A stretch of DNA of 64,000 bases, from the NCBI RefSeq assembly GCF_019263705.2, contig NZ_JADQDK010000001.1:2294001-2358000 (forward strand), in the 5' to 3' direction. The notes beneath the pieces are model-generated. The model did no database searches and had not been told where the DNA came from. It worked only from the letters and a program-made list of their open reading frames with translations. Shown here one piece after another: positions 30,514-64,000 of this stretch. A program made the position numbers and the translations under genes. The DNA comes from Pseudonocardia abyssalis. Its GTDB lineage: Bacteria; Actinomycetota; Actinomycetes; Mycobacteriales; Pseudonocardiaceae. How positions within the stretch are numbered: position 1 is the first letter of the stretch; each line of letters opens with the position of its first letter.

Positions 30514-30535
30514 ACCGGACTCGCGGGAGGACCGC

Positions 30536-31237: not shown

Positions 31238-31253
31238 GTTACGGAGGATTCTC

Positions 31254-48818: not shown

Positions 48819-49115
48819 CTACCGACGCCGCTGCACCGCAGTGACGACGTCCGCGTACCCCGGGTGCTTGCTGATCCAGTTTCGGACGTAGTCACACTCG
48901 GGCACGACGGTCAGCGCACGACACCGGGCAACATCGAGTACGCCCCGGACGAGCGTGCCGGCGACGCCCTGGCCACCGAACTCCCTACCGATCTCGGTGT
49001 GCAGGAGCGTGATCTCGTCATCGTCGAGGCGGTACTCGACCACCCCGGCGAGTTGGTCGCCACGATGGATCTCGAAGCGCGAGCGCTCGGGATCGTCCGT
49101 GAGTGTCAGCTCCAC
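48819..49115 (-). CDS. Small GNAT-type acetyltransferase
   Basis: The 98-residue protein is a one-domain GNAT of the YjdJ type: FEIHRGDQLAGVVEYRLDDD, LLHTEIGREFGGQGVAGTLV (acetyl-CoA loop) and VPECDYVRNWISKHPGYADVV. GGAGAG lies 6 nt before the GTG start. It follows gshB by 37 nt in the same direction, probably in one transcript. Substrate unknown. Confidence 0.88.
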   Translation of the reverse strand: MELTLTDDPERSRFEIHRGDQLAGVVEYRLDDDEITLLHTEIGREFGGQGVAGTLVRGVLDVARCRALTVVPECDYVRNWISKHPGYADVVTAVQRRR

Positions 49116-49152
49116 GTGCTGCTCTCCATTCGTGCGAGATCAATCGGTGGCA

Positions 49153-50169
49153 CTACCCGTGCAGCGCGGCGTGCCGGGTCTCGACCCACGCGACCACGTC
49201 GTCGGACAACCTGGTGCCGGAGAACGCATCGATCTCGCGTACACCGGTGGGGCTCGTCACGTTGATCTCGGTGAGGTAGTCACCGATCACGTCGATCCCC
49301 ACGAAGATCAGCCCGTTCGCGGCCAGGCGGTCGGCGATCCGTGTGCAGATCTCCTTGTCCCGCGGCGTGACGGAGTCGGCGACGACCGAGGCACCGGCCG
49401 CCATGTTGCACCGGAACTCACCCCCGCTCGCCACCCGGCGAACCACCCCGATCGGCGCGCCGTCGAGCACGATCACCCGACGGTCACCGTCGACCGACTC
49501 CGGGATGAAGCGCTGGACGACGACGTGATCACGTCCCCGCGACGTCGCCGCCTCGAGGATGGAGCGCAGGTTGGGGTCGTCGGGGCGGAGCAGCATGATC
49601 CCGCGTCCGGCCATCCCGTCGGTGGGCTTGACCACCGCCGCCCCCCACACACCGGTCACGTCGACGATCTCTGCGATGTCGGAGCTCACGACGGTGTCCG
49701 GGCACAGCTCCGGGAACTGGAGACTGAACAGCTTCTCGTTCGCGTTCCGGAGCCCGGCCGGATCGTTAATCATGATCGTCCGACGCTCGTCGACCAGGTC
49801 CAGGACGTAGGTGCCCCGCAGGTAGGCGGCATCGACGGGCGGATCGGTGCGGACGAAGACGGCGTCGACCAGGTCGAGGACCCAGCGCTCGGGCGCGCCC
49901 GCGCTGTACCAGTTCTGCTCTGCGCGCCACCGACCGCCGTGCAGCGTGGCGGGCCGTACCTGAACGGGTGTGCAGACGGCCACCGCCCGGCCGTGGGAAA
50001 CACCGAGGGCCCCCATCGTGGTGACCAGGATGCGGTGGCCGCGTGCCTGGGCGGACTCCATCAGCGCGACGCTGGTGTCGTGCGCAGCGTCGAGCGAGTC
50101 GATCTCGTCGATCACGAAGACGAGGTGGAGTTGCGGGTTGGCTCTGGACGAGGAGTGGGAAGTGGACAT
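49153..50169 (-). CDS. gshB: Glutathione synthetase
   Basis: The 338-residue ATP-grasp enzyme matches bacterial GshB: RTDPPVDAAYLRGTYVLDLV, NANEKLFSLQFPELCPDTVV, VVKPTDGMAGRGIMLL, FIPESVDGDRRVIVLDGAPI and the end motif FVGIDVIGDYLTEINVTSP. It ligates glycine to gamma-glutamylcysteine. Glutathione is rare in actinobacteria, which normally use mycothiol; dedicated gshB genes accompany glutathione-dependent isoprene or styrene oxide clusters, as here. GGAGG precedes the ATG; it is divergent from the C26 amidotransferase gene. Confidence 0.93.
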   Translation of the reverse strand: MSTSHSSSRANPQLHLVFVIDEIDSLDAAHDTSVALMESAQARGHRILVTTMGALGVSHGRAVAVCTPVQVRPATLHGGRWRAEQNWYSAGAPERWVLDLVDAVFVRTDPPVDAAYLRGTYVLDLVDERRTIMINDPAGLRNANEKLFSLQFPELCPDTVVSSDIAEIVDVTGVWGAAVVKPTDGMAGRGIMLLRPDDPNLRSILEAATSRGRDHVVVQRFIPESVDGDRRVIVLDGAPIGVVRRVASGGEFRCNMAAGASVVADSVTPRDKEICTRIADRLAANGLIFVGIDVIGDYLTEINVTSPTGVREIDAFSGTRLSDDVVAWVETRHAALHG

Positions 50170-50286
50170 CGGTGTCCTCCGCTTGCGTAGGCGGTACAGG
50201 TGGGCGCGAGCTACGTGACTTTTCCTTACCTGTCAGATTTTCAGTCCTGATCTAAGCTGACGGTCGGCAGACGAGGGGACCGAGAC

Positions 50287-51000
50287 ATGCAGGAGCCAGG
50301 CAGCCGCGGGGCGCCACTGATCGCGGTGACGGGCCGACGACGACCCGCGCACGGAGTGCACACCGGTCCGGCGATGCTCGACTCGCTGCACCTCGACGTG
50401 TACTTCACCGGCTACGCCGAACATGTCGGGGCAGCCGGCGGGATCGCGGTGTACGTGCCGTCCACGACCGACCCGGAAGCCCTGCTCGACCGGGTCGACG
50501 GGCTGATCCTCAGCGGGGGCGCGGACGTGGACCCGATCCGCTACGGCGCCGCCAGATGCTCGACGACCCCCGAACTCGATCCCGAACGCGACGCCACCGA
50601 ACTCGCGCTGCTGGACGCGGCGCTGGCACGCGAGCTGCCCGTGTTGGCGATCTGCCGCGGCCTGCAGCTGGTGAACGTCAGCCGCGGAGGCACCTTGCAC
50701 GCCCACCTCGATGAGCACCAGGTCGGGCCGTGGCACGAGGTTCTCATCGAGCCCGGCAGCATGCTCGGAGGCCTCCACGGCGCGACGACCAGCGTCAACA
50801 GCCTCCACCACCAGAGCATCGACCGGCTCGGTGACGACCTGGTCGTCACCGGTCGAGCCCTGGACGGCATCGTCGAGGCCGTCGAGCTGCCGGGGAGCCG
50901 GCTGCTCGGCGTGCAATGGCACCCCGAGCAGCTGGCCGGACCGCAGCCCGTGTTCGACTGGCTCGTCGACGGCGCCCGTGAGCGCTCCGCGATCCGCTGA
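50287..51000 (+). CDS. Class I glutamine-amidotransferase-like gamma-glutamyl hydrolase (peptidase C26)
   Basis: This 237-residue PuuD-like enzyme has the nucleophile elbow AICRGLQLVNVSRGG (Cys) and the His-Glu pair in GVQWHPEQLAG, with SGGADVDPIRYG early. Such enzymes cleave gamma-glutamyl bonds. Between gshB and the GST/aldehyde-dehydrogenase genes it may remove the gamma-glutamyl group of glutathione or glutathione conjugates; gamma-glutamyl-GABA is the textbook alternative. GAGGGG precedes the ATG. It converges on the aldehyde dehydrogenase gene. Confidence 0.85.
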   Translation: MQEPGSRGAPLIAVTGRRRPAHGVHTGPAMLDSLHLDVYFTGYAEHVGAAGGIAVYVPSTTDPEALLDRVDGLILSGGADVDPIRYGAARCSTTPELDPERDATELALLDAALARELPVLAICRGLQLVNVSRGGTLHAHLDEHQVGPWHEVLIEPGSMLGGLHGATTSVNSLHHQSIDRLGDDLVVTGRALDGIVEAVELPGSRLLGVQWHPEQLAGPQPVFDWLVDGARERSAIR

Positions 51001-51010
51001 CTCCATCGAC

Positions 51011-52435
51011 CTACCTCTTGACGCTGAGCACCTTGATGTTGGTGTACCCGTGCAGGCCGTGCAGAGAGCCTTCGACGCCGATCCCCGACTGCTTCGCCCC
51101 GCCGAACGGGACGGCCGCCGTCACCACCGGGTGCTGGTTGACCCACACCGAACCGGCGTCGAGACGCTCTGCCACCGCCGTGGCGCGGTCGAGATCAGGC
51201 GACCACACCGACGCACCGAGGCCGTAGTCGGTGTTGTTGGCCCGTGCGACCGCGTCGTCGACATCGCGGTAGGTGAGGATCGGAACGACGGGCCCGAACG
51301 GCTCCTCGTCGACCAGCGGAACGCCTTCTGCGACATGACGGACGAGCGTGGTCGGGAACCAGTAGCCGGGGCCGTCGGGAACCTCGCCGGTGAAGAACGC
51401 CTCGCCGCCGCGGGCGATCGCGTCCTCGGTCAGCTGACGGACACGCTCGAGCTGCGGCTTGTTCTGCACCGGTCCGGCCTTCACACCCTCCTGCAGGCCG
51501 GGGCCGACCAGCACCGTTGCGGCTTCGGCGGCCACGGCCTCGCAGATCGCGTCGAACTTCGACTCGGGTACGTACAGACGCTTGAGCGCCGCACAGACCT
51601 GACCGGAGTTGGAGAACGCGGCCCAGAAGAGATCGGCACCGATGACGGCCGGGTCGGCGTCGTCGAGAACGATGCCGGCGTCATTGCCGCCCAGCTCCAG
51701 CGTGACGCGCTTGAGCGTTCCCGCCGCGGAGGCCATGACCCGCTTGCCCGTGGCGACCGACCCGGTGAAGGAGATCTTGTGTACGCCCGGGTGCGCGGTC
51801 AACGCGGACCCCAGTTCGTCGGTGCCCGCCACGACCTGGAACACCCCGGGAGGCAGGACGTCCTGGAGCAGCTCGCCGAGTCGCATGGTGGAGACCGGCG
51901 TGTAGGGCGACGGCTTGACGATGACCACGTTGCCGGCCACGAGCGCGGGGATGAGCTTGAACATCGCCGCGAGGATCGGGTAGTTCCACACGGTGATGGC
52001 GCCGACCACCCCGAGCGGCTCGCGCCTGACCTCGACCCGGCCGGTCTCGTCGTCCTTGATGACCTCCGGGTCGAGGGTGATAGAGCCCAGGAAGTCGATC
52101 TGGCGGAGGCTGGCACCGACCTCACCGCGGGCGTTGCCGAGCGGCTTGCCCTGCTCCGTCGTGACGAGCAGCGCCAGCTCGTCGATGTTGGCCAGGATGA
52201 CGTCCTTGATCCCCCGGACGATCTCCTGACGACGCGTGAGCGGCGTGGCGCGCCAGGCAGGGAAGGCGGCGTTCGCGGCGGCCACGGCCTCGTCGAGCTG
52301 GGCGAGCGATGCCGCAGGGACCTCGATGAAGGATTCGCCCGTGGACGGGTCGATCACCGAAAGGCTGTCTGCGGACCCGCAGGAGCGTCCGTTGATCGTG
52401 AGCTGCGGGGTCTTGATCGCGGTCGGGGTCGCCAT
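51011..52435 (-). CDS. Aldehyde dehydrogenase of the glutathione-conjugate pathway
   Basis: The 474-residue ALDH shows VGAITVWNYPILAAMFKLIP, FTGSVATGKRVM, the catalytic Glu in VTLELGGNDAGIV and the nucleophile Cys in NSGQVCAALKRLYV. In isoprene and styrene oxide clusters an ALDH oxidises the glutathionyl aldehyde formed by the IsoH-type dehydrogenase. ATG at 52435 has GGAG at ideal distance; ATG at 52441 would overlap the upstream stop by ATGA and is also possible. Confidence 0.9.
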   Translation of the reverse strand: MATPTAIKTPQLTINGRSCGSADSLSVIDPSTGESFIEVPAASLAQLDEAVAAANAAFPAWRATPLTRRQEIVRGIKDVILANIDELALLVTTEQGKPLGNARGEVGASLRQIDFLGSITLDPEVIKDDETGRVEVRREPLGVVGAITVWNYPILAAMFKLIPALVAGNVVIVKPSPYTPVSTMRLGELLQDVLPPGVFQVVAGTDELGSALTAHPGVHKISFTGSVATGKRVMASAAGTLKRVTLELGGNDAGIVLDDADPAVIGADLFWAAFSNSGQVCAALKRLYVPESKFDAICEAVAAEAATVLVGPGLQEGVKAGPVQNKPQLERVRQLTEDAIARGGEAFFTGEVPDGPGYWFPTTLVRHVAEGVPLVDEEPFGPVVPILTYRDVDDAVARANNTDYGLGASVWSPDLDRATAVAERLDAGSVWVNQHPVVTAAVPFGGAKQSGIGVEGSLHGLHGYTNIKVLSVKR

Positions 52436-52437
52436 GG

Positions 52438-53205
52438 TCATCTCTCCGGATCTGGGGTTGCGGAACCGTCGGGGGCGACGCGCGTGGCGGCTCCGACCGG
52501 GTTCGCGGTGGTCCGGAACAGCAGTTCTCGCTGCTCCGCGGTGTAGCGGAAGTTCCTGACGTCGTCGTCGCGTCGGTCCTCGACCTTCGCCTGCGCCGAG
52601 GGCCGCGCCGAGATGCGCTCGGACCACGACGCCACCGCAGGGAAGTCGGCCAGGCTGATGCCGTGGCCCTTGCCCAGTCGCGTCCACGGGAAGCACGCGA
52701 TGTCGGCGATCGAGAACTCGCCCGATCCCTCGCCGGCGAGGAACTCCCGGCCGGTGAGTCGGTCCTCCAGGACCCGGTACACGCGTTGCGCCTCGGCCCC
52801 GAAGCGCTGCTGCGCGTACTCGACGACGTGCCCACCCTGCGGGGCGTACGTGGTGAAGTGGGTGGCCTGGCCGAGTCCCGGCCCCTGGTTGGCGACCTGC
52901 CAGATCGTCCAGCAGATCGCCTCCCAGCGGGCAGCGGGATCCGACGGCAACAACCTGCCGGTCTTCTCCGCCAAGTACTGCAGGATCGCCGCGGACTCGA
53001 ACAGCGCGATCGGACCGCCCCCGGGACCGTCGTGGTCGACGATCGCCGGGATCTTGCTGTTCGGGTTCACCAGCAGGTAGTCGGCTTCGAACTGGTCCCC
53101 GCGGGTGATGTCGACCCATCGGATCTCGTAGGGAAGACCGAGCTCCTCGAGGGCCATGTGGATCTTGCGGGCGTTCGGGCTGACGAAGTAGAAGAGATCG
53201 ATCAT
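52438..53205 (-). CDS. isoJ: Glutathione S-transferase, IsoJ position (Nu-like)
   Basis: This 255-residue GST has the thioredoxin-fold start LFYFVSPNARKIHMALEELG with the SPN motif of Nu-class (YfcG/YghU-like) proteins, VNPNSKIPAIVDHDG and the helical domain motif FSIADIACFPW. Such GSTs often act as thiol-disulfide or lyase-type enzymes. Its place after the IsoI-type GST matches isoJ/styJ, proposed to remove glutathione at the end of the route. GGAGGG precedes the ATG. Confidence 0.8.
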   Translation of the reverse strand: MIDLFYFVSPNARKIHMALEELGLPYEIRWVDITRGDQFEADYLLVNPNSKIPAIVDHDGPGGGPIALFESAAILQYLAEKTGRLLPSDPAARWEAICWTIWQVANQGPGLGQATHFTTYAPQGGHVVEYAQQRFGAEAQRVYRVLEDRLTGREFLAGEGSGEFSIADIACFPWTRLGKGHGISLADFPAVASWSERISARPSAQAKVEDRRDDDVRNFRYTAEQRELLFRTTANPVGAATRVAPDGSATPDPER

Positions 53206-53233
53206 GATGACGCCCTCCGACGCCCGCGGGTGA

Positions 53234-53950
53234 TCAGACGCCGTAGCGCGTGTTCATCCGCTGGGAGTAGGCGACGAGGTTGGTCTTGGAACGGGCGTAG
53301 TCGCGGCCCGCCCAGTCCCACGGGACGTCGGCGATGTGCCGGAAGGTGGAGTAGATCGTGGCGTCGAACGACGTCGGCTCGGAGCCGAGGAAGTACTCCT
53401 TGTCGCCGAGGAACGTCGACAGCGCGTCGAGGTCCTCCGAGAGGTTCTGCAGCACGTCGTCACCGGTCCGCAGACCCATGCCGTGCCCGCCGGCCGCGGC
53501 CCAGATCTTCTGCCGGTACGCGAGCATGGCCTCGATGAACTCGGGAGCAGGCTCCTGCCCGGGAGGCACGAAGGACGGCAGGTAGACCGAGAAGACCTCG
53601 TCGTTGCGCCAGCGCGGGTAGATGATTCCCGACCAGTAGACGTTCTCCTCGACCGTGCGCTGGAACGCCAGGCCGACGGCCTTGTCGGTGTCGCTGAGGT
53701 GGCTGTCGAGCTTGTCGCCGTACTTGGCCTGCAGGTGCTGGACGATCCGGGTCGAGTCGTTGACCTGCACGCCCTCATCGACGATGTAGGGCAGCTTCGC
53801 GGTGGGCGACTTCTGGGCGAGCGAGTCCAGGGGCTGGATCTCGTAGGTGAAGGGGATACCCGCCATCGTCAGGTAGTTGACGACCTTGGTGACGAACGGG
53901 CTGATATCGGACAGCCCCCAGGACGGGACGAACCCGTAGACCGTGATCAT
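53234..53950 (-). CDS. isoI: Glutathione S-transferase, IsoI-type epoxide-conjugating
   Basis: The 238-residue GST of the metaxin-like branch begins MITVYGFVPSWGLSDISPFV, then TAKLPYIVDEGVQVNDSTRI and FLGSEPTSFDATIYSTFRHI. Length, N-terminus and gene order agree with IsoI/StyI, which open isoprene or styrene oxide with glutathione. AGGAG precedes the ATG. The GST with the next SDR forms the core pair of the pathway. Confidence 0.82.
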   Translation of the reverse strand: MITVYGFVPSWGLSDISPFVTKVVNYLTMAGIPFTYEIQPLDSLAQKSPTAKLPYIVDEGVQVNDSTRIVQHLQAKYGDKLDSHLSDTDKAVGLAFQRTVEENVYWSGIIYPRWRNDEVFSVYLPSFVPPGQEPAPEFIEAMLAYRQKIWAAAGGHGMGLRTGDDVLQNLSEDLDALSTFLGDKEYFLGSEPTSFDATIYSTFRHIADVPWDWAGRDYARSKTNLVAYSQRMNTRYGV

Positions 53951-53990
53951 GACAAGACTCCTTTGGCTCGTGCGTGGACAGGAACGGAGA

Positions 53991-54689
53991 TCACCAGGGC
54001 AGGAAGCTGCCGTTGGCGTGCTGGAAGCGGCCGGCGTCGGCCGGAGTGAGGGCGTCGAGGACGGCCACCAGCTGGGCGGCGGCGTCCTCCGGTGCGCTGT
54101 ACGCCGAGGCGTACTTGGTCATCTGGTCGGGATCGACGACGTCGAGCAGGTTGGTCAGGACCATGCCGGGGTGCAGCGCCTGCACCATGGCGCCCTGCTT
54201 GACCAGGTCGTGGTGCAGGTTGAGCGCGACCATGTTCGCCGCGGCCTTGGAGATGCGGTAGGCGTAGTCGCCACCGCTGCCGTTGTCGCCGAGCGAGCCG
54301 ACGCGGCTGGTGAAGATGCCGACCTTGGCGCCCCGGTCGAGCAGACCGCGCAGTTCCCGCACGACACGCAGCGGGCCGATGGTGTTGACCTCGAACTGGT
54401 GCCGGACATCGTCGAGGTCGACGGTGTCCAGGGTGTCGAGGTGCATGATGCCGGCGACGTGGACGATCCAGTCGAGTCGGACGCCACGCTGCTCGAGCCG
54501 CTTGCCGAGCTCGGCGACGGCGTCGTCGGAGGTGACGTCGACTCCCGGCTCCACCGCGATGCCCAGCTCGGCGAGGTCGGCCCCATCGCCGAAGCACGCC
54601 GCGACGACCTCGTCGCCACGTCCGTGCAGGTGCCGTGACATCGCGTGCGCGATACCCCGGTCGGCTCCGACGATCAGCTTCGTGGCCAT
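53991..54689 (-). CDS. isoH: SDR, IsoH-type glutathionyl-alcohol dehydrogenase
   Basis: The 232-residue SDR starts KLIVGADRGIAHAMSRHLHG (a Rossmann loop of modified form), then HVAGIMHLDTLDTVDL, IFTSRVGSLGDNGSGGDYAYRISKAA (Ser, Tyr, Lys in place). IsoH oxidises the hydroxyl of the glutathione adduct to aldehyde and acid. GAGGAG precedes the ATG by 7 nt. It is 2 nt from the isoG-type stop and 40 nt from the GST gene. Confidence 0.82.
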   Translation of the reverse strand: MATKLIVGADRGIAHAMSRHLHGRGDEVVAACFGDGADLAELGIAVEPGVDVTSDDAVAELGKRLEQRGVRLDWIVHVAGIMHLDTLDTVDLDDVRHQFEVNTIGPLRVVRELRGLLDRGAKVGIFTSRVGSLGDNGSGGDYAYRISKAAANMVALNLHHDLVKQGAMVQALHPGMVLTNLLDVVDPDQMTKYASAYSAPEDAAAQLVAVLDALTPADAGRFQHANGSFLPW

Positions 54690-54691
54690 GC

Positions 54692-55942
54692 TCAAGCTCC
54701 TCTGGTCAGTACCGCGTCGGCTTCGTCAGCCGGTGCGGGATCGGGTTCCTGGTGTTCGTCGCCGACGACGCCCTCGGCGACGAGTCGAACGATCTCCTCG
54801 CGGGTCACGCCGAGCTCCTCGAGCACCTGGGTGTTGTGCTGACCCAGCAGCGGCGCCCCACGGGACGGGCCGACGGGCGTGTCGGAGAAACGGGGCGCGG
54901 GACGCGCCTGGCGCAGCCTGCCCGCCACAGGGTGTTCGGATTCCACGATGGACCCCGAGGCGAGCACCTGCGGGTGGTCGATCAGCTCGTAGCGGCGCAG
55001 GGCGGGAGCGCACGGAACGTCGTGCTCGGGGAGGATCTCCAGCCACTCGGACGCAGGTCGCTTCAGCAGCACCTCCTGGATCACGGTGAGGCGCTCCTCG
55101 ACGTTCTCGTCGCGCTTGGCCGGAGTGTTGAAGCGGTCGTCGTCGAGGAGATCCGGTCGGTCGGCTGCTGCGCAGAACGCATGCCACTCCCGGTCCTGCA
55201 TCGTCGAGACCGTGATGTAGCCGTCCGCGGTCTCGTAGATCAGGTCGATGAAGCTGGCGGCGCGCTCCGGCTCGACCGGCTGGTCCATGAACGTGTAGGC
55301 GTTCATGTCGCTGGCCCACAGGAAGGACAGGACCGTGTCGAGCATCGAGAGCTTGATGTGCTGGCCGGTTCCGCTGCGTCCGCGTGCCACGAGGGCTGCG
55401 CAGATCGCCTGCGCGCCGGCGATGGCGGTGAGCTTGTCGGGAAGCACGGTCCGGATGAGCTTGGGGCGCTCGGTGTCGGAACCGGCCTGCACCGTCGTCA
55501 GGCCCGACAGCGCCTGGACGATCGGGTCGTAGACCCGGCGTTCCGAGTACGGACCCGTCTCACCGAAGCCGCTGATCGACAGGTAGACCAGCCCGGGATT
55601 CACCTCGCGGAGATCGTCGTAGCTGATGCCGAGGCGCTCGACGACGCCGGGACGGAAGTTCTGCACCAGCACGTCGGCGGTGGCGACGAGCGTTCGCAGC
55701 GTCGCCACTCCCTCGGGGTGCTTCAGATTCAGCGTCACCGAGCGCTTGGAACGGTTGATGTTGACGAACATCGACGCCATGCCCTGCGACTGGTTGCGCA
55801 GCGCCCGGACGTGATCGCCGGCTCCGGGTGGCTCGACCTTGATCACGTCGGCGCCCTGGTCGCCGAGGATGTCGGCCGCCCACGGACCGGACAGCATCGC
55901 GGACAAGTCGACAACCCGAATGCCGGCCAGAGGACCACTCAT
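54692..55942 (-). CDS. isoG: Family III CoA-transferase, IsoG type
   Basis: The 416-residue CaiB/BaiF protein has LSGPWAADILGDQGADVIKV, SKRSVTLNLKHPEG, FRPGVVERLGISYDDL and SISGFGETGPYSERRVYDP with the family catalytic Asp. In isoprene and styrene oxide clusters IsoG/StyG activates the glutathionyl acid to a CoA thioester before glutathione is removed. GAGG precedes the ATG. It is the first gene of the isoG-H-I-J-aldH operon and is divergent from gshA. Confidence 0.82.
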   Translation of the reverse strand: MSGPLAGIRVVDLSAMLSGPWAADILGDQGADVIKVEPPGAGDHVRALRNQSQGMASMFVNINRSKRSVTLNLKHPEGVATLRTLVATADVLVQNFRPGVVERLGISYDDLREVNPGLVYLSISGFGETGPYSERRVYDPIVQALSGLTTVQAGSDTERPKLIRTVLPDKLTAIAGAQAICAALVARGRSGTGQHIKLSMLDTVLSFLWASDMNAYTFMDQPVEPERAASFIDLIYETADGYITVSTMQDREWHAFCAAADRPDLLDDDRFNTPAKRDENVEERLTVIQEVLLKRPASEWLEILPEHDVPCAPALRRYELIDHPQVLASGSIVESEHPVAGRLRQARPAPRFSDTPVGPSRGAPLLGQHNTQVLEELGVTREEIVRLVAEGVVGDEHQEPDPAPADEADAVLTRGA

Positions 55943-55986
55943 CGTTCACCTCGCTGTGGATGTCGTTGGCATCACAGAACGTAACG

Positions 55987-56053
55987 AGAAATTTCTTAGC
56001 AGTCAACTACTTTTCAGGAAGATGTTTGCTGGTATGCTACAGCCCTCCTAGCA
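55987..56053. promoter_or_regulatory. isoG/gshA divergent promoter with TAGCA elements
   Basis: The 127-bp gap is strikingly AT-rich for this genome. It holds the palindrome AGAAATTTCT (55987-55996) with CTTAGCA overlapping it, and a dyad TGCTA-N9-TAGCA (56035-56053). TGGTATGCT at about 56030-56038 looks like an extended -10 for gshA. The TAGCA pentamer recurs twice before the marR gene, so MarR may act here too. Confidence 0.5.
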
Positions 56054-56069
56054 GTCGAGAGGTGCCTCC

Positions 56070-57317
56070 GTGCCGTCACAACGTCGTGCGCTTGCCCGGG
56101 CAACCGCCGTCGACATCGCCGCGGCCTCCTTCATCGGGGAGCCGCCGTCACTGTGCGGGATCGAGCTGGAGTGGCCCGTGCATCGGTACGACGACGTCGG
56201 CACTCGGCCGACCCACCCCGAGCTGCTCGCCGCAGCCCAAGGTCCCCTCCCCCACGGCGGGCGGGTCACCATCGAGCCGGGTGGCCAGATCGAGCTCTCC
56301 ACGCTCCCCGCGGCCACGGCGGACGCCACCCTCGACGCCGCGACGATGGATTCGACGACGTTGCACGAACGCCTGCGCCGCGCCGGACTGGTCACCGCCG
56401 AGCTGGCCGTCGACACCCGCCGTAGCCCACACCGCATCCTCACCGCGGCTCGCTACGCCTGCATGGAGGAGTTCTTCTCCAGCACCGGCGACGCCGGGTC
56501 CTGGATGATGTGCAACACGGCGTCGCTGCAGGTCAACCTGAGCCACCTTGCAGTGGACCCGCAGCGACGATGGAAGCTGGCCCACCAGCTCGGCCCGATC
56601 CTGATCGCGGCGTTCGCCCACTCCCCCGGCCTCGACGCCGCGGGACGGCGGTGGGAGTCGATGCGCCAGGCGATCTGGTGGTCGATCGATCCCGGCCGTA
56701 CCCGTCCGCCGTGTCTGCGCACGGCAGGCCCGGACGCCTGGTTGCACTACGCGATGTGCGCAGATGTCATGCTCATGCGCTCGGCCGACGCGAGCACGGC
56801 CGTCCCGATCGCGCCCGGCCTCCCGTTCGGGCGCTGGCTCGCGGAAGGTCACGAAGGTACGTGGCCCACGGTCGAGGATCTCCGCTACCACCTCACGACC
56901 CTGTTCCCGCCGATCCGCCCGCGTGGATGGCTGGAACTGAGAATGCTCGACCTCCTTCCGACGCGCCTCCGCGATGTGGCCACCGTCGTCGTGCTCGCGG
57001 CGTTGACGACCCCGGCCGCGGACGAACTCGAGGAGCGCCTGCCCTCGACCGAGGGACTGTGGTGCGCCTCGGCCCGGTACGCGATGGGCCACCCGGCGCT
57101 CGCGAACGCCGCGCGAACACTGTTCGACACGGTCCTTCCGGCAGTGGAGGCGGTGACGACCAGCGCTGGGCGGCGTGACGACGTCGGCGCCTTCGCCCAG
57201 GAGTACATCGCCCGCGCGATGTCGCCTGCCCAGCGGGTCGGGAGCAGGGAGCTCGGCTCGGCGTTCGCCCCGTCCCTCAGCTTCGACAGGGCCACCCAGC
57301 ACGCCCTGGCCGGCTGA
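56070..57317 (+). CDS. gshA: Glutamate-cysteine ligase
   Basis: This 415-residue GCS2-family ligase has CGIELEWPVHRYDD near the N-terminus, EPGGQIELSTLP, MMCNTASLQVNLSH and RPRGWLELRMLDLLP, matching actinobacterial GshA/EgtA enzymes. It makes gamma-glutamylcysteine. EgtA serves ergothioneine, but no other egt gene is here; next to gshB and two GSTs a glutathione role is more likely. GAGAGG lies 7 nt before the GTG start. It is divergent from isoG. Confidence 0.88.
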   Translation: MPSQRRALARATAVDIAAASFIGEPPSLCGIELEWPVHRYDDVGTRPTHPELLAAAQGPLPHGGRVTIEPGGQIELSTLPAATADATLDAATMDSTTLHERLRRAGLVTAELAVDTRRSPHRILTAARYACMEEFFSSTGDAGSWMMCNTASLQVNLSHLAVDPQRRWKLAHQLGPILIAAFAHSPGLDAAGRRWESMRQAIWWSIDPGRTRPPCLRTAGPDAWLHYAMCADVMLMRSADASTAVPIAPGLPFGRWLAEGHEGTWPTVEDLRYHLTTLFPPIRPRGWLELRMLDLLPTRLRDVATVVVLAALTTPAADELEERLPSTEGLWCASARYAMGHPALANAARTLFDTVLPAVEAVTTSAGRRDDVGAFAQEYIARAMSPAQRVGSRELGSAFAPSLSFDRATQHALAG

Positions 57318-57321
57318 CCTC

Positions 57322-57780
57322 ATGCGCGTACGTCTGCCCGGCTCGATCGGGCTCGCCGCCTTGGCCTGGCTGCTGGTCGGCGGGCTGCTGATCGCCTCGT
57401 GGTTCGGTCAGCTGCAGACCGACGGTGAACCCTCCGTCGGCACGATCACCGACGCGCTCGGCGATGACGCGGTCGCGGGCACGTCCGGGTCCGCTTCCGG
57501 ATCCGCACTGCCGCTGTTACTCGGAGCGATCATCGTGCTCCTCACAGCCGGGCTGCTGCTTCGGCACGGCTGGACACAGTGGGTGCTGTTGCCAGCCGGA
57601 TTCATCGGAATCATCGCCATCGCCTCCTCCGGCCGATGGTCCCTCCTGATGATCGGCATGCTGGCGGTGTTCGTCGGCTCCGTGGCCCTCATGCCGCGCA
57701 GTGCACGACGATTCCTGGCGACGTCACCGGCGACCACCGATCATTCCACTGGTCATGACGATCCGAGCCCCTCGATGTGA
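57322..57780 (+). CDS. Small four-span membrane protein
   Basis: This 152-residue protein has hydrophobic spans at about 8-28, 62-80, 86-104 and 107-125, with an acidic Gly/Ser-rich loop between the first two and a Thr/Ser-rich tail. I do not recognise a family. It begins 4 nt after gshA and is probably co-transcribed with it. A role in membrane thiol or transport balance is only a guess from position. Confidence 0.7.
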   Translation: MRVRLPGSIGLAALAWLLVGGLLIASWFGQLQTDGEPSVGTITDALGDDAVAGTSGSASGSALPLLLGAIIVLLTAGLLLRHGWTQWVLLPAGFIGIIAIASSGRWSLLMIGMLAVFVGSVALMPRSARRFLATSPATTDHSTGHDDPSPSM

Positions 57781-58005: not shown

Positions 58006-58989
58006 TCAGAGCCCGCGTTGCATCATCGCCAGGTAGACAACCGCGATGAGCAGCAGGAAACAGATGACGAACGCCGGATCGACATCCACTGTGCGCATTC
58101 GGCGCTCGCGTGCCGCCCGCAACGCGGCATCGAGATCGGGCGGCCCGAGCTGATCCAGGATGCGGAATCTCCGGTCGAACTCGGCGCCGTCGTGGACACC
58201 GTCCAGCAGAACGGCCGGATCACCTGTCGCGACGATGCGGGCGTTGCACAGGACGGCCAGCCCATCGCCGAGTTCCCGTGCCACACGGAGGTCGTGGGTC
58301 GTGATCAGCATCGTCGCGCCGGTGCGGCGCTGGGTGGCGCGGATCGTCGCGATGATCTGTTCTTCGTGGAGCGAGTCGAAGGCCGGCTCGAGGTCGTCGA
58401 GCAGTACCAGTGGCGGGTCGGTGACGAGCGCCGCCGCAAGCCCGACGCGGCGTCGCATGTGCGCGGCCAACTCCGATGGAAGCCTGTCGGCGACGTCCTG
58501 CAGGCCGAGAGTGCGCAGCCACCAGGTCACCCGCGGCCGTACGAGTTCCTCGTCCGCGCCGGGTATCTGACGCAACGGGAACGCGACGTTGTCGTACACG
58601 GTCAGCGAGCCGAACGTCGAGCCTTCGTAGACCGTGCTGCCTCCGAGCAGTGCCCCGATCCCTCGTCGTAGGTCCCGCAGGTCCGCCGCGGCGCACCCCA
58701 CGACCTGATGGCCGCCGATCTCGATGCTGCCGGCGTCGGGCGGGATCAGACCGACGAGATGGCGGATCAGCGTGGTCTTGCCTGCGCCCGAGGGGCCCAT
58801 CAGGACGGTCACCCGACCGGCCGGCACCTCGAGACCCAGCCGGTGCAGTACGACGGTGTCACCGCGGACGGTGGTGACACCGTCGATCCGGATCGCGGGC
58901 GGGGCACCCCGAGCGCCTGCCCGCGCTTCCCCCGGTTCGCTGCCTGCGGCCGGGTTCGACCCGGTCATGGCCGGCCTGGGCCCGGACAC
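58006..58989 (-). CDS. MCE-type (MlaF/Mkl-like) ABC ATPase with altered signature and Walker B
   Basis: The 327-residue ATPase has Walker A GPSGAGKTT and the MlaF-like start IRIDGVTTVRGDTVVLHRLG. The signature LSGGM of MlaF/Mkl is replaced by ELAAHMRRRVGL, and Walker B reads LVLLDDLEP, i.e. Asp in place of the catalytic Glu. The switch His is kept (ITTHDLRV). A hydrophobic C-terminal helix (FVICFLLLIAVVYLAMM) would anchor it to the membrane, which is unusual. It is near the MCE/RND operon and probably its ATPase. GTG is used as start here; ATG at 58968 is possible. Confidence 0.85.
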   Translation of the reverse strand: MSGPRPAMTGSNPAAGSEPGEARAGARGAPPAIRIDGVTTVRGDTVVLHRLGLEVPAGRVTVLMGPSGAGKTTLIRHLVGLIPPDAGSIEIGGHQVVGCAAADLRDLRRGIGALLGGSTVYEGSTFGSLTVYDNVAFPLRQIPGADEELVRPRVTWWLRTLGLQDVADRLPSELAAHMRRRVGLAAALVTDPPLVLLDDLEPAFDSLHEEQIIATIRATQRRTGATMLITTHDLRVARELGDGLAVLCNARIVATGDPAVLLDGVHDGAEFDRRFRILDQLGPPDLDAALRAARERRMRTVDVDPAFVICFLLLIAVVYLAMMQRGL

Positions 58990-59139: not shown

Positions 59140-59724
59140 TCAGTCGTCGTCCAGGGGCTCCAGAGCGAGGAGGAACTTGCGAAGCAGTTGAGCGAGCCGT
59201 TCTTGTTCCGGCGCCGTGAGCGCATCGGAGAGCACCTTGGCGTCGTGAACCATCAGATCGTCCAGCAACGAGTCGACCAGCTCGATACCGGCGGGCGTCA
59301 GCTCGACGTCGACGCGCCGGCGGTCGACGAGGTCGACGTGGCGGGTCACCAGGCCGGCCCGCTCCAGCTTGTCCAGACGCTGCGACACCCCACCCGAGGT
59401 GATGAGGGCCGACCGGGTGAGTTCGCCGGCGGAGCGACGGAAGGGCGGACCGGACCGGCGGAGCATCCCGAGGACGTCGACCGTGCCCCGGTCGCTGCCG
59501 AACGCGGCGAGCTGGGCCTTGCGCTGCTGCTCGAGGTGTCGCCCGATGCGCCATATCCGGCTGACGACACCCATCGACGTCACATCGGTGTCCGGACGCT
59601 CGCGCTGCCAGTCGCGTTCGACTCGGTCGACGGCGTCCTCGACGCTCGCCTCATCCTCGCCGGACAGCTCGGCCTCACCACGCTGTACAGGCACTCCACC
59701 GACTTCGTTCATGGTGATGGTCAC
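59140..59724 (-). CDS. MarR-family transcription regulator
   Basis: This 194-residue protein has the MarR winged helix (SAGELTRSALITSGGVSQRLDKL, AGLVTRHVDLVDRRRVDVELT) between dimerisation helices. GTG at 59724 has GGGGGA at suitable distance; longer starts lack an SD. It lies between the MCE/RND operon and the ATPase gene on the same strand. MarR genes also accompany isoprene and styrene clusters, so it may regulate the iso-type promoter as well. Confidence 0.88.
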   Translation of the reverse strand: MTITMNEVGGVPVQRGEAELSGEDEASVEDAVDRVERDWQRERPDTDVTSMGVVSRIWRIGRHLEQQRKAQLAAFGSDRGTVDVLGMLRRSGPPFRRSAGELTRSALITSGGVSQRLDKLERAGLVTRHVDLVDRRRVDVELTPAGIELVDSLLDDLMVHDAKVLSDALTAPEQERLAQLLRKFLLALEPLDDD

Positions 59725-59778
59725 TCTACGAGTCCCCCTCGGATCGGCGTTCACACGGCTGCAAGCGTAGTTGAGCGT

Positions 59779-59798
59779 AGCACTAAACAACTTAGCAA
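59779..59798. promoter_or_regulatory. marR promoter operator candidates
   Basis: The AT-rich gap upstream of marR contains CTAA-N5-TTAG (59784-59796) flanked by two direct TAGCA copies (59779-59783 and 59794-59798). The TAGCA element also occurs in the isoG/gshA promoter. MarR autoregulation is the simplest reading. Confidence 0.45.
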
Positions 59799-59813: not shown

Positions 59814-60029
59814 TCAGAATAGTGCAACCACCGCCCCCGCCAGGAACGCCGCAGCGACGACCGCGCACGTCGTCCCGCCTCGGCGCAGCATCCGGGCCCG
59901 GCGCTCGCGTTCGAGTCCCACGAAGTGCGCCGGCACGAGTGCCTCGGCGTTGCTGCGGCCCCAGTGGCCCAGTACGAGGAGAGGGACCGCCATGGCCACG
60001 AGTCCGACCATCGTGAACAGCGCGTTCAT
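59814..60029 (-). CDS. Small membrane protein at the end of the MCE/RND operon
   Basis: This 71-residue protein has two hydrophobic spans (about 5-23 and 52-70) separated by an Arg-rich loop (GLERERRARMLRRGG), so it is probably a hairpin membrane protein with a cytoplasmic loop. It overlaps the PpiC gene by ATGA. No family is recognised; it may be a small partner of the transporter. Confidence 0.75.
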   Translation of the reverse strand: MNALFTMVGLVAMAVPLLVLGHWGRSNAEALVPAHFVGLERERRARMLRRGGTTCAVVAAAFLAGAVVALF

Positions 60030-61147
60030 CGCGGCGGGCTCGTCCCCGGCGGCACCGGCGCCGCGGGTGCCGGGTCCTGCGCTGCGGGCCCGGTCGCCGG
60101 AGGGGCATCCGGATCAGCCGGGCGATACGCGTCCGCGTACTGGACGGCGGCGTCGGAGATGCGGGCCGCCAGCCACTCGCGCCACGCCTGGGTGCTGCGC
60201 TCCAACTCCAGCTGGGCACGGAGTGGCTCCAGGACCTGTTCGTACACCGCCGGAGCCGGAGGGGTCACCTCGAGCACGGTGCCCACGTTCCAGCCGTGCA
60301 GTCCCTGCACCGGACCGAACACGTCGTTCGGGGTTGCGGCGAAGGCCGCGGCCGCATAGGCGTCCTCGAGCGGGGCGGCCGGCACCGTGCCGAGATCGCC
60401 GCCCTGGTCGCGCGTCGCGGCGTCGTTGCTCACCTGACGCGCCACCTCGGCAAATGGCTCGCCGGCACGAACCCGGGCGGCGGCATCATCAGCGGCCCGT
60501 TCGTCGGGCAGCACCATGTTCGCCAGATGACGGAGCTCCGGGGTGTCGATCTCTGCTCGCCGCTCGTCGAACGCGCTCGCGACGTCGTCGTCGGAGACGG
60601 AGACGTCTCGCGTGACCTGTTCCAGGAGCTGCCCCACAGCGAGCTGCCGCTTGACCTCGACGAGGACGGCCCGTTCCGACGTTCCCGCGTTACCGAGCGC
60701 CTCGACGAGCTGTCGACGCGCGTCGGCGCCCTCCCCGAGTTGGTCGCTCACATACCGGTCGAAGACGTCCTGGGCGGACTTGTCCGCGATGACGATGCCG
60801 CCGTCCTGGGCCGCCCGCTCGAGGATCAGCGCCACCGCGTACGCCTTCGCCGCGTCGCGCCGGAAGGCGTCCAGCGCCGCGGGTTCCGTCGGGGGCTGCA
60901 CACCGTAGAGCGCCTTCAAGGTGTCCACCTCGTCGTCGAGCTCCTCGACGGACACCACCCGGTCGCCGATCCGGAACGCCGCGTCCTCGGGGAGCTGACC
61001 CGCCCGCGAGATCAGGTGACCCCCGACCACGGCGGTCAACGCCAGCGCCAGCACCGCGGCCAACAGCGCTCGACCGCGCCTGCCGGCCGGCACGACGGTC
61101 CGGCGCGCCAGGTCGGCGGTTCGTTCGATCAACGCGGAGCGCGTCAT
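60026..61147 (-). CDS. Membrane-anchored PpiC/SurA-type peptidyl-prolyl isomerase
   Basis: The 373-residue protein has an N-terminal anchor (about 28-48), SurA-like helices and a parvulin domain at about 205-300 with LRHLANMVLPDERAADDAA and DQGGDLGTVPAAPLEDAYAA. The tail is Pro/Ala-rich. It would fold exported proteins outside the membrane, probably the MCE protein encoded upstream. It overlaps the RND gene by one base (TGATG). Confidence 0.85.
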   Translation of the reverse strand: MTRSALIERTADLARRTVVPAGRRGRALLAAVLALALTAVVGGHLISRAGQLPEDAAFRIGDRVVSVEELDDEVDTLKALYGVQPPTEPAALDAFRRDAAKAYAVALILERAAQDGGIVIADKSAQDVFDRYVSDQLGEGADARRQLVEALGNAGTSERAVLVEVKRQLAVGQLLEQVTRDVSVSDDDVASAFDERRAEIDTPELRHLANMVLPDERAADDAAARVRAGEPFAEVARQVSNDAATRDQGGDLGTVPAAPLEDAYAAAAFAATPNDVFGPVQGLHGWNVGTVLEVTPPAPAVYEQVLEPLRAQLELERSTQAWREWLAARISDAAVQYADAYRPADPDAPPATGPAAQDPAPAAPVPPGTSPPR

Positions 61148-63465
61148 CACCCAACTCCAATCACTGCGTTCACGGTTGCGGCCGGTTCGTCGGCCGGAAC
61201 CGGCTCGGGAACGGCCGCGACGGGGACCGGCCAGGCCCAGATGACGAGCTGGGCGGCGGCCAGCGCCAACAGCACCGAACCCGCCAGGAGCAGCCCGAAC
61301 TCGCGGATCGCGCCCAGGCCCGAGACGGCGAGGACGAGGTAGCCCACCGCGGACGTCGCAGCGGCCAGGAGGACCGATCGACGCAACCCGCGATGGGCGC
61401 GCCTGCGTGCCTCGGTCAGCATCACGGTGAACTCGCACCCCACCGCGGCGGTCAACGAGCCGAGCGCCACCGTCACGGGGTTGAGCGGCAGGCCGACCAG
61501 CCGGATGAGGAGCAGTCCGACCCCGGTCGCGATCACTGCGGCCGCCACTGCGCGCGCCGCGTCCGGGCGGCGGCGCCCCAGCCCCACCGCGAGGACCAGC
61601 CCGGCCGCAGCCACGCCGGCGAGGTTCGCCAGGTAGCGATCGCCCGAGACCAGCTCGTGCGCCCGGGCGGCGAGCATCGGCAGGCCGGTGATCTCCACCT
61701 CGAAGGAGGCAGGTGGCGGCGGCAACGAGCCGAGCACCTCGTCCCGGAGGACCTGCAGTTCGACCGCGTCCTCGACCGTGCTGCCGAAGACCAGGGCCGC
61801 GACCGTGTGGTCCGCCCCGATCACCGATCCCACGAGGTAGGGGGGCAGCAGCCGGAGACCGGACGTGATCTGTTCGGTCGACGGTTGCACCCCGAGGAAG
61901 CCGAGCAGCGTCGGCGCCGAGATGGCGGGACGCAGACGGTCCCCGTGTCCGGTGATCACCGTTTCCTGCGCCGTCTGCATCCAGGCCAACGCCTCCGGTG
62001 ACGTGACGTCGGGGCCGCGCAGCACGATGTCCACCTCGCCGGTACTGCCCAGCGCCTGCTGGAGCTCGTCGACCTGCGCACCGGCGGGCAGACCGTCGAT
62101 GAAGGAGTCGAAGTCGGCCTGCAGGGGCAGCGTCGGCAACGCCACCCATCCACAGAGCGCGACGAGCCCGGCCGCCACGAGGACCGCGCTCCGGGTGCGG
62201 CGTGAGGAGGTCGCCCGCTGCGGCCCGAGGTCGGGCGATGGCGCCGGAGCGGGCTGCGGCGCGGTGACGGCCGCGGTGCGGATCAGCAGCGCGCCCACGC
62301 CGCACGCCGCCAGTACGCCCAGCCCCAACACCAGGCCGAGGTCGCGCACGAACGGCAGCGGGGAGAGCAACAGGGACCAGAAGCTGCAGGCCGTCGCGAA
62401 GGCGACGACGACCACCACGCGCCGTCCGGCGTGCTGCGCGAAGTAGGTCGGGTAGTAGCTCCCGATCCCCAGCAGCACCGGCAGGAAGGCGACCACGCCG
62501 AGCGAGGTGGGACGACCGATCCATCCGAGCGTGGCGAGAACCGCGGCCGTCGCCAGCAGGGTGGTCACCACCGGCAGCAGCCGACGTCGACGACTGGTCC
62601 ACGGGGTGAGGAAGAAGCACAGTGCGACCGCGGCGATCGCGAGACCACCGACGAGAGGCACCTCCTTGCGGACCTGCTCCCCCAGCGCCGCGACCACCGA
62701 CGGGACGCCGGACACGGTCACCTCGTCGGCCTCGAGCCCAGCACTCGCGACGACGGTCCGCACCCGCTCGACGAGCCGCTCGGTCTCCGCCTGCCCGAGG
62801 CCCTGGCGAGGACGTACGAGCACGGCGGCCGACCGGTCCGACGGCACGACGAACCGCCACTGCGGCCGCGGCTGCCCGGTCGGGTCATAGGTGGCAGCGG
62901 CCACGAAGGAGTCGTTGCGGATCGTGGGCAGACCGGCAGGCAGGCCCTGGGCGAGCAGTGATCCGTAACGTGTGTCGAACTCGGCGCTCGCCCGATCCGC
63001 GGCCGCGAGTGCCTCGGACTCGGAGACCCCGCCACGGCGAGCCGTGGCCTCAGCCGTCTGCCGGATGCCCTGACGCCGCCCCGCCAACTCCGCCAACAGG
63101 TCCTGCGACCGGCCCGCCACCTGGTTCAGGATGGTGGCGGGCCCGTAGACGGCGGCGACGTCGGGGAGTCCGGCCAGCTGACCCTCGAGCTTCAGGAGCC
63201 CGAGGAGCCGTTCCCCCTCCAGCAGCCGGCGCGGCTCGGCCGACTCCAGCAGCACGACGACCGGGTCGGCCCCGAAGGACCTCGCGAACCCGTCGAACTG
63301 GTCGATCGCCGGATCCGAGGAGGGGACGAACGAGTCGACGCCGGTCGCGACCTCGAGGCGGACCAGGCCGCCGGCCAGGAAGGCCACGGCCACGAGGACC
63401 GCGGCCGCGCCGACCAGACGTCGACGGCCCGGCCGTACGGAGCGCCATCCGCTCGCCGCTGTCAT
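61147..63465 (-). CDS. RND/MMPL-family transporter
   Basis: The 772-residue protein has one N-terminal span, a large extracytoplasmic loop (to about 265), five spans, a second loop and a second five-span bundle, the duplicated RND plan. VALGSLTAAVGCEFTVMLTEAR is the HpnN/MMPL-like segment of TM10 region. It lies between an MCE gene and a PpiC gene with ATGA and TGATG overlaps, so it may pass lipids or hydrophobic compounds to or from the MCE protein. Confidence 0.88.
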   Translation of the reverse strand: MTAASGWRSVRPGRRRLVGAAAVLVAVAFLAGGLVRLEVATGVDSFVPSSDPAIDQFDGFARSFGADPVVVLLESAEPRRLLEGERLLGLLKLEGQLAGLPDVAAVYGPATILNQVAGRSQDLLAELAGRRQGIRQTAEATARRGGVSESEALAAADRASAEFDTRYGSLLAQGLPAGLPTIRNDSFVAAATYDPTGQPRPQWRFVVPSDRSAAVLVRPRQGLGQAETERLVERVRTVVASAGLEADEVTVSGVPSVVAALGEQVRKEVPLVGGLAIAAVALCFFLTPWTSRRRRLLPVVTTLLATAAVLATLGWIGRPTSLGVVAFLPVLLGIGSYYPTYFAQHAGRRVVVVVAFATACSFWSLLLSPLPFVRDLGLVLGLGVLAACGVGALLIRTAAVTAPQPAPAPSPDLGPQRATSSRRTRSAVLVAAGLVALCGWVALPTLPLQADFDSFIDGLPAGAQVDELQQALGSTGEVDIVLRGPDVTSPEALAWMQTAQETVITGHGDRLRPAISAPTLLGFLGVQPSTEQITSGLRLLPPYLVGSVIGADHTVAALVFGSTVEDAVELQVLRDEVLGSLPPPPASFEVEITGLPMLAARAHELVSGDRYLANLAGVAAAGLVLAVGLGRRRPDAARAVAAAVIATGVGLLLIRLVGLPLNPVTVALGSLTAAVGCEFTVMLTEARRRAHRGLRRSVLLAAATSAVGYLVLAVSGLGAIREFGLLLAGSVLLALAAAQLVIWAWPVPVAAVPEPVPADEPAATVNAVIGVG

Positions 63466-64000
63466 CGTGGCGGGTCCTGCTGGACGCGCGTGTACTGACC
63501 GTCGAACGGACCGGGCCTGTCCGCGCTGCCGGGCGCGGGGTAGGCGTTGGACCTGTCCAGGAGGGGGATCTGGTTCGTGCTCACCGGCTGCCCGCGGTAG
63601 GACGCCTCGTTGAACACCATGAAGATGCGCAGCGTCTTCCCGTTCGCGTCACCCCGGTTCAGCGCCTGCGCGAAGTTCGAGAAGAACGCGGAGACGTCTC
63701 GCCCGTAGGGCTCCATGTAGGACAACATCGGGTTGACGTCGGACAGCGCGACATCGGTCGCACCGATGAACCCGCTCGTCCCCTCCGCGAACTGCGGGGT
63801 CCGATCGAGCGTCGCCGGGGCCTCGTCCAGCACCTGCTGCAGCGACGGAAGCATCCCGCGGAGATCGGCAGAGGTCTCCGGGAGCTGCCGGAGGGCATCG
63901 GACAGGTCCGGAGCGGCCTCCCGGAGGTCGGCCGCAACCGGTCCGAGGTTCGTCGACAACGACGTGAGGTCGTCCGAGGCGTCGTGGGTGACGTCCAGCA
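63462..64000 (-). CDS. MCE-family protein (C-terminal part; runs off right edge)
   Basis: About 178 residues are visible, a long helical region with LREAAPDLSDALRQLPETSA and SLQQVLDEAPATLDRTPQFA, then DVNPMLSYMEPYGRDVSAFF and a Pro-rich end. This is the helical tail typical of actinobacterial MCE/MlaD proteins; the MCE domain itself would lie beyond the window. It overlaps the RND gene by ATGA. It would form part of a lipid- or hydrocarbon-import channel. Confidence 0.82.
   Translation of the reverse strand, partial: LDVTHDASDDLTSLSTNLGPVAADLREAAPDLSDALRQLPETSADLRGMLPSLQQVLDEAPATLDRTPQFAEGTSGFIGATDVALSDVNPMLSYMEPYGRDVSAFFSNFAQALNRGDANGKTLRIFMVFNEASYRGQPVSTNQIPLLDRSNAYPAPGSADRPGPFDGQYTRVQQDPPR

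Follow-up and report, generated by a model that had tools for sequence, protein, structure and literature searches.

Linked styrene monooxygenase genes and an mce operon beside a glutathione-dependent epoxide module on the chromosome of Pseudonocardia abyssalis

Introduction

Which oxygenase feeds a glutathione-dependent epoxide module on the chromosome of Pseudonocardia abyssalis? The module, isoG-isoH-isoI-isoJ-aldH flanked by the glutathione genes gshA and gshB, lies in a stretch of 64,000 nucleotides, here called the window (C1:2294001-2358000, C1 being contig NZ_JADQDK010000001.1 of a 6.3 Mb assembly with 2 contigs and 99.4% completeness). Positions without prefix are those of the window. 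A first-pass annotation of the window described the module as lacking its monooxygenase and proposed a different epoxide source, possibly an arylalkene. We find styA2-styA1-styB genes a short way beyond the window edge. The module is very probably (about 85%, judged from gene content and relationships) the lower half of a chromosomal, glutathione-dependent styrene (arylalkene) pathway of the type known from Gordonia rubripertincta CWB2.

Three known systems serve for comparison. The plasmid pGCWB2 of strain CWB2 carries styAB, styGHIJ, aldH, gshA, gshB and paa genes. The isoprene clusters of Rhodococcus AD45 and Variovorax WS11 (isoGHIJ-aldH-isoABCDEF) have a homologous module with glutathione chemistry, as described in the available part of PMC10057887, and use a di-iron monooxygenase, whereas the island of the window has StyA/StyB. 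The Pseudomonas styABCD system shares StyA/StyB epoxidation and the phenylacetate exit with our island, but there an isomerase and not glutathione opens the epoxide (available part of PMC8552685).

Results

Styrene monooxygenase genes beyond the window edge

Neither a StyA gene (PF17885) nor a di-iron oxygenase gene (PF02332) is present in the window; all whole-genome matches lie elsewhere. The whole-genome search with PF17885 gives two StyA genes, which together with a StyB gene form the group styA2-styA1-styB on the strand of the module (C1:2370778-2373940). Gene families here and below were called with NCBIfam equivalog cut-offs and Pfam profiles. StyB (C1:2370778-2371284) scores 206.7 bits against its cut-off of 200, while StyA1 (C1:2371325-2372605) and StyA2 (C1:2372681-2373940) score 702.6 and 732.8 bits against the StyA cut-off of 550. 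The group is located 12.8 to 15.9 kb past the window end. It is separated from the end of gshA by 19.5 kb, and StyA is about 24 kb from isoI. Since the genes start 12.8 kb past the edge, a reader limited to the window could not see them. The apparent absence of a monooxygenase is a window-edge effect: no oxygenase adjoins the module within the window, as first described, but the module is not without one, and we rejected the view of it as an orphan.

Both StyA1 and StyA2 contain N46, V48, H50, Y73, H76 and S96 in a comparison of seven StyA proteins, numbered by alignment to the nearest solved StyA, 3ihm. In the part of PMC13101512 available to us, this fingerprint is given for styrene and not indole monooxygenases.

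No isoABCDEF-type monooxygenase stands with the module, the only PF02332 locus of the genome being far off at C1:4.38 Mb (L004:10031-14396). By its gene content, which includes a GroEL-like gene, we take this locus to be a propane-type monooxygenase. Its alpha subunit is 22-26% identical to the alpha subunits of iso loci. The genome search for soluble di-iron monooxygenase and StyA/StyB genes proposed in the first-pass annotation has returned two StyA genes and one di-iron locus, and the stretch around the StyA genes contains one StyB gene.

The module in other genomes

A genome collection scanned with an IsoI alignment yielded 26 loci in 23 genomes (L022, L028 and L035 share genomes with others). 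StyA is found in 9 of these 23 genomes and a di-iron oxygenase in 17, the two classes overlapping. Typed by neighbourhood, five loci are StyA-linked, 13 are di-iron loci, two have neither in the examined flanks, and six (L020, L022, L023, L026, L033 and L034) could not be typed and stay outside both the StyA and the di-iron counts. The StyA-linked loci are copy 1 of Pseudonocardia endophytica, Aeromicrobium Root495 and Nocardioides Root190, Root240 and Root682; with the window's genome and CWB2 they make up the seven StyA-type clusters. In P. endophytica DSM 44969 the order is styA-marR-gshA-isoGHIJ-aldH-gshB-styA-styB, with styA and styB interleaved with the orthologous module, whose G, H, I, J and AldH proteins are 73-85% identical to those of the window. 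In the three Nocardioides strains a StyA domain lies about 17.5 kb from isoI. IsoI is found in 3 of 62 genomes of the genus and in one of 397 sampled genomes of the order, which is the window's own. A plasmid search returned the CWB2 match (52.7%) and 13 other records at 26-31%.

The concatenated G-H-I-J tree was built from the 18 of 27 labelled modules that had all four proteins. It unites the seven StyA-linked modules, including those of the window and CWB2, in one clade with support 1.0. Outside this clade lie the di-iron modules sampled from actinobacteria and proteobacteria, of which the actinobacterial ones group weakly (0.35). The phylogeny of the glutathione S-transferases, which had been set as a test, places IsoI and the whole G-H-I-J set within the family and in its StyA-linked part.

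Two other loci may deserve the name of orphan: the second copy in P. endophytica (L012, 8069-13771) and the locus of Actinomycetospora endophytica (L015, 8038-15118), which pair with support 1.0 in the concatenated tree. Both are isoGHIJ-gshB-C26-marR modules, L015 with aldH in addition. No StyA or di-iron oxygenase occurs in the part of their flanking genes that was scanned; these genes are of siderophore-synthetase, aldolase, decarboxylase, 2-hydroxyacid dehydrogenase, ligase, amidohydrolase, transporter, regulator, hydrolase and peroxidase types. Di-iron oxygenases are present elsewhere in both genomes, and StyA also in P. endophytica. We regard the two loci as better candidates for a module without an evident epoxide source. 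To be noted, P. endophytica (G398) is unusually rich in oxygenases, with three StyA genes and fourteen hits in the di-iron hydroxylase family.

Module genes and proposed pathway

The operon occupies 51011 to 55942 on the minus strand, with gshA and gshB on opposite sides. Its order and enzyme set are those of CWB2, and the MarR regulator, GshA/GshB, the paa genes and StyA/StyB are also shared; IsoI, IsoH and IsoG are 53%, 68% and 64% identical to their CWB2 counterparts. Unlike in CWB2, the version of the window is chromosomal, it has two styA genes, and its styAB genes are separated from gshA by 19.5 kb and stand behind an mce operon. It also differs by a C26 hydrolase gene beside gshB and by a mycothione reductase paralogue in place of the CoA-disulfide-reductase-like FAD enzyme of CWB2. 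The first-pass description of one operon with a CoA transferase, an SDR, two glutathione S-transferases and an aldehyde dehydrogenase, flanked by gshA and gshB, agrees with the profile matches.

In the proposed pathway, StyA and StyB would epoxidise the vinyl group of the substrate, and the epoxide would be opened with glutathione by IsoI/StyI (53234..53950, minus strand; NF049950, 360.6 against a cut-off of 300). The only PDB sequence matched by IsoI is StyI, 9qd3, and a genome search with IsoI returns IsoI alone. In CWB2, styrene oxide is joined to glutathione by StyI, with an activity of 48.3 U/mg, and not by StyJ, according to the available part of PMC8552685. The SDR IsoH/StyH (53991..54695, minus strand; NF049951, 393.8 bits against 350), predicted to be the dehydrogenase of the glutathione conjugate, and AldH (51011..52441, minus strand) would then convert the hydroxymethyl group and give a glutathionyl arylacetic acid. 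For Variovorax, the accessible part of PMC10057887 reports that IsoI and IsoH catalyse the corresponding isoprene steps and that AldH enhances the second oxidation. Our AldH was assigned by its similarity to AldH of P. endophytica (85% identity) and CWB2 (69-70%); none of the 25 NCBIfam aldehyde dehydrogenase models shown is over its cut-off.

The family III CoA transferase IsoG/StyG (54692..55942, minus strand; PF02515, 378.6 bits) would make the CoA ester, and IsoJ/StyJ would remove glutathione as glutathione disulfide (GSSG). IsoJ (52438..53205, minus strand) is a second glutathione S-transferase with PF13409 and GST_C domains, 76% identical to its P. endophytica counterpart and 53% to StyJ of CWB2. 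Published accounts differ on the order of these two steps: in the available parts of the two reports, glutathione is removed before CoA activation according to the CWB2 authors (PMC8552685) and after it according to the isoprene authors (PMC10057887). Phenylacetyl-CoA would finally enter the nearby paa genes for phenylacetyl-CoA catabolism (24236..35083), which comprise paaK, an SDR gene, paaZ, a thiolase gene, an enoyl-CoA hydratase gene, a regulator gene and paaABCDE. PaaABCDE, PaaK and PaaZ are over their cut-offs, and the paa genes are the likely exit of the pathway.

The mce operon

An mce operon with two MlaE permeases, an ATPase, six MCE-type genes, an MMPL gene and a PpiC-type rotamase gene stands between styB and the module and is followed by marR. 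With MlaE permeases, MlaD-type MCE proteins and an ATPase, it has the composition of an Mce importer. The rotamase, MMPL, ATPase, both permeases and two of the six MCE genes were called with Pfam, the other MCE genes by order and similarity. Its module-side end occupies 60026..64000 on the minus strand (rotamase 60026-61147, MMPL 61147-63465, first MCE gene from 63462), and the operon runs on to C1:2367827. The lipid importers Mce1 and Mce4 of mycobacteria likewise have two YrbE permeases, six MCE-type genes and an ATPase. Unlike them, the operon described here belongs to a divergent subfamily, carries MMPL and PpiC at its end and is linked to styrene genes.

An mce operon is found with six of the seven StyA-type clusters, its near end lying at most about 15 kb from isoI; the six come from three genera and show at least three arrangements. 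The operon is placed between oxygenase and module in the window's genome and in Nocardioides, where Root190 shows styA-styB-yrbE-mce-MMPL-PpiC-marR-isoGHIJ-aldH on one strand. It is found beside aldH in Aeromicrobium and beside the third styA in P. endophytica. In CWB2, the 40.7 kb examined contain no mce gene. Among the 13 di-iron loci, several of them on short contigs and two from actinobacterial genomes without any mce permease, a single one has permeases near isoI on the same contig (L021, Mycobacterium AT1), and these belong to another subfamily. The available part of PMC12917321 mentions MCE proteins beside a Mycobacterium iso cluster, which matches L021.

The tree of YrbEA plus YrbEB covers 44 loci (10 of about 11 in Root190, 3 of 4 in Actinomycetospora, 4 of 5 in R. 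jostii, the island loci only in Root240 and Root682, and the L016 genome left out). All six StyA-linked mce loci fall into one subfamily of 10 of the 44 loci (0.98) and, within it, into a nine-member clade (0.95). They are not monophyletic, because three non-island paralogues lie among them. The window's genome has eight mce permease matches, corresponding to four operons, and Root190 has 22, corresponding to about 11. The operon may be a dedicated importer of a hydrophobic substrate. By titles and abstract openings, a literature search found nothing on point for a link between Mce and styrene.

A second mce operon of the same subfamily, again with MMPL and PpiC, is present in the window's genome near an aldehyde dehydrogenase and a CoA ligase gene (C1:5942794-5944294; L095, L096).

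A palindrome at the promoters of the cluster

The regulator gene marR (59140..59790, minus strand; PF12802) encodes a homologue of the MarR of the CWB2 module, with 62.7% identity over 166 residues. Position 59790 is the start of the longest possible reading frame, and the gene caller sets the start at 59694. The palindrome GCTAA-N5-TTAGC is found upstream of marR with one mismatch, overlapping the longest marR frame (59782..59796). Its partner is located upstream of styA2, between styA2 and the mycothione reductase gene (C1:2374062). A weak copy with two mismatches lies between isoG and gshA (55986..56000), and the same gap in P. endophytica also has a copy with two mismatches.

Allowing one mismatch, seven sites are present in 149,914 bases of StyA-type cluster DNA, compared with a Markov expectation of 0.3 on average and 3 at most (40 runs). 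The other twelve spacer lengths from 0 to 12 together account for three sites. All seven sites are immediately upstream of cluster genes. In P. endophytica they precede styA1 and the second marR, and in CWB2, Aeromicrobium and Root190 the gshA-gshB gap carries the palindrome. The first scan, with spacers 2-8, also gave an L010 site at 2351, distant from the sty genes; the count of seven used L010 from 5000 to 24000 and so does not include it. Inverted-order matches in that scan occur in L035 (14025) and L011 (7949). Of 17 other loci scanned with at most one mismatch, a single one carries a site: L013 (Nocardioides Root240, StyA-type), at 16840.

Genome-wide, six sites are found in the window's genome: two in the island, two elsewhere and two in a sequence that recurs in other genomes and is presumably 16S rRNA. 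P. endophytica has five, three in the recurrent sequence and two in the island. The share of sites inside the cluster is one of six in Aeromicrobium and one of seven in Root190.

In Aeromicrobium, TGAGATTCTCA is found upstream of marR and also of yrbEA. In the same genus a second palindrome, TGAGA-N-TCTCA, stands exactly upstream of marR, as it does in CWB2, and also upstream of yrbEA. The window and the other stretches scanned contain no exact copy, and we keep it as a lead. Neither palindrome is present upstream of yrbEA in the window's genome or in P. endophytica.

Thiols, disulfide reductase and C26 hydrolase

Glutathione would come from GshA and GshB, and the organism has the mycothiol gene mshC as well. 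GshB (49153..50169, minus strand) scores 370.5 bits with TIGR01380 (cut-off 299.05). GshA (56070..57317, plus strand; PF04107, 130.5 bits) is a glutamate-cysteine ligase of the GCS2 family. With the EgtA model TIGR03444 it reaches 289.1, under the cut-off of 370.8, as do GshA of CWB2 and P. endophytica, and a separate EgtA gene is present at C1:1741456 (398.7). The glutathione link drawn in the first-pass annotation is borne out. Mycothiol is probably made too, since MshC is over its cut-off (682.8 against 485.1).

By its model score (686.5, cut-off 635.65), the disulfide reductase encoded divergently from styA2 is a mycothione reductase. A copy with a higher score lies at C1:165755, and the same pair is found in P. 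endophytica. Other genomes have one mycothione reductase over the cut-off (P. thermophila and Actinomycetospora) or none (Root190 and Aeromicrobium). The clusters of CWB2, Root190 and Aeromicrobium have a CoA-disulfide-reductase-like FAD enzyme instead, which has no relative among the called genes of both Pseudonocardia islands. On the simplest reading the duplicated mycothione reductase may replace the GSSG reductase of the CWB2 type. A third mycothione-reductase-like gene scores 591 bits, under the cut-off (C1:2253911-2255251); its P. endophytica counterpart, at C1:2241599 of that genome, is about 23 kb from the second module.

The C26 (PuuD-like) gamma-glutamyl hydrolase gene, noticed earlier as an insertion, is located at 50287..51000 on the plus strand, between gshB and aldH and divergent from gshB (PF07722, 194.7 bits). 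It contains the motifs AICRG and WHPE and scores 98.8 with the PuuD equivalog model, below the cut-off of 266. Hydrolases 51-53% identical to it directly follow gshB in L012 and L015. This recurrence of the gshB-C26 pair weakens the view of a stray insertion, a judgement in which the frequency of C26 paralogues in these genomes was not considered. The enzyme may trim gamma-glutamyl compounds.

Neighbouring genes

Between marR and gshA there is an ABC transporter ATPase gene (58006..58989, minus strand; PF00005). We do not link a GNAT-family gene (48819-49115) or a gene for a 152-residue protein without Pfam match (57322-57780) to the module. Beyond styA2, genes for a P450, a reductase, a Baeyer-Villiger-related flavin monooxygenase, hydrolases and a catechol dioxygenase relative (L008:820-5801 and L008:17147-17998) represent further aromatic catabolism near the island. 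Three StyA-type clusters share a pair of small proteins with the Mycobacterium AT1 isoprene cluster (L111:2484-3473, L054:13773-14640, L010:9146-10124, L021:18929-19865). In P. endophytica one of the two is SCP2-like; the pair was not found in the window or in the examined neighbouring stretches of its genome.

Discussion

The linked StyA/StyB genes, the StyA-linked clade, the interleaved order in P. endophytica and the common palindrome together argue for a glutathione-dependent styrene pathway of the CWB2 type. The same-strand oxygenase genes, the palindrome and the P. endophytica order also speak against the different epoxide source that had been proposed. The guess of an arylalkene substrate is supported. 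Several points weigh on the other side. StyA and the module are 19.5 kb apart in the window's genome, with other genes in between. The tree of IsoI alone is less resolved and moves the second P. endophytica copy (L012) elsewhere. Neither AldH nor IsoG matches an equivalog model from which the substrate could be read. The palindrome, a putative regulatory site, was derived from the very promoters on which it is used, so that its rarity serves as a check and not as a prediction made independently; its isoG-gshA copy is the one with two mismatches. Counted genome-wide, a reversed control is commoner in all four genomes (11, 23, 20 and 13 sites against 6, 5, 7 and 6), so that the location of the palindrome and not its number is informative. 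The pathway assignment is strong, and we infer the substrate in this strain, its import by the mce operon, the reduction of GSSG by the duplicated mycothione reductase and the role of the C26 hydrolase.

Could the module belong to another metabolism? A former isoprene pathway now without its monooxygenase, or a module for detoxification that is supplied by the propane-type enzyme or by a P450, would agree with the NCBIfam names of IsoI and IsoH, which refer to isoprene, and with the presence of the di-iron locus. However, these names do not tell the substrate, since StyI of CWB2, a styrene degrader, receives its name from the same IsoI model. The window's module groups with the StyA-linked ones, and the sole di-iron locus is distant and dissimilar. 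On these grounds the isoprene cluster without its monooxygenase was rejected, and we consider this whole reading very improbable. Another arylalkene or vinyl compound, such as alpha-methylstyrene or a plant phenylpropene, could be the true substrate, with the adjoining operon at 35270-47539 serving the same range. This operon encodes acetophenone-carboxylase-like subunits, a PaaK-like ligase, a GntR regulator, a thiolase and a second CoA ligase, and looks like a route for carboxylation of a ketone to a beta-keto acid and its thiolysis. It is kept beside the P. endophytica module at 70-89% identity. The number of StyA genes, two in the window's genome and three in P. endophytica, points to more than one substrate, and the CWB2 pathway is reported, in the available part of PMC8552685, to accept substituted styrenes. 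But the ketone carboxylase is below the ApcABCD equivalog cut-offs (611/1250, 191/250, 1173/1500 and 1002/1500 bits) and counts as a relative only. We hold such a substrate to be rather unlikely.

The styrene pathway could also be as stated with the mce operon as a chance or passive neighbour that takes no part in arylalkene uptake. Actinobacteria are rich in mce operons, CWB2 has none in the part examined, the island-linked loci have non-island paralogues among them, near-identical Nocardioides account for three of the six positive clusters, and yrbEA in both Pseudonocardia islands lacks the palindromes. Against a passive neighbour stand the occurrence in six of seven StyA-type clusters but one of 13 di-iron loci, the membership of all six in one subfamily, the Nocardioides operon between styB and marR-isoG on one strand, and the Aeromicrobium sequence that precedes marR and yrbEA alike. 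A passive operon is a serious possibility, if short of an even chance. That actinobacteria would have put together a full unit for arylalkene consumption, with the divergent Mce system dedicated to uptake of styrene-like compounds under the regulation of the module, as Mce4 is to cholesterol, and with the mycothione reductase duplicate of mycothiol-making Pseudonocardia recruited for recycling glutathione disulfide, is a tentative proposal to which we give somewhat less than that.

In the styrene island of P. abyssalis the pathway is a known one, whereas its host and arrangement are new and two of its partners were not expected. Our literature search on Pseudonocardia and styrene found nothing on point. 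With the Pseudonocardia island, the glutathione-dependent styrene pathway of Gordonia CWB2 would gain a chromosomal version, and judged by sequence it would also occur in Nocardioides and Aeromicrobium. The isoprene names that databases give to the module proteins mislead on the substrate. The island offers a testable cargo for an Mce subfamily for which we found no cargo report. It is also a test case for a second thiol in a mycothiol organism, in which GshA and EgtA are separate and a copy of mycothione reductase lies next to the oxygenase.

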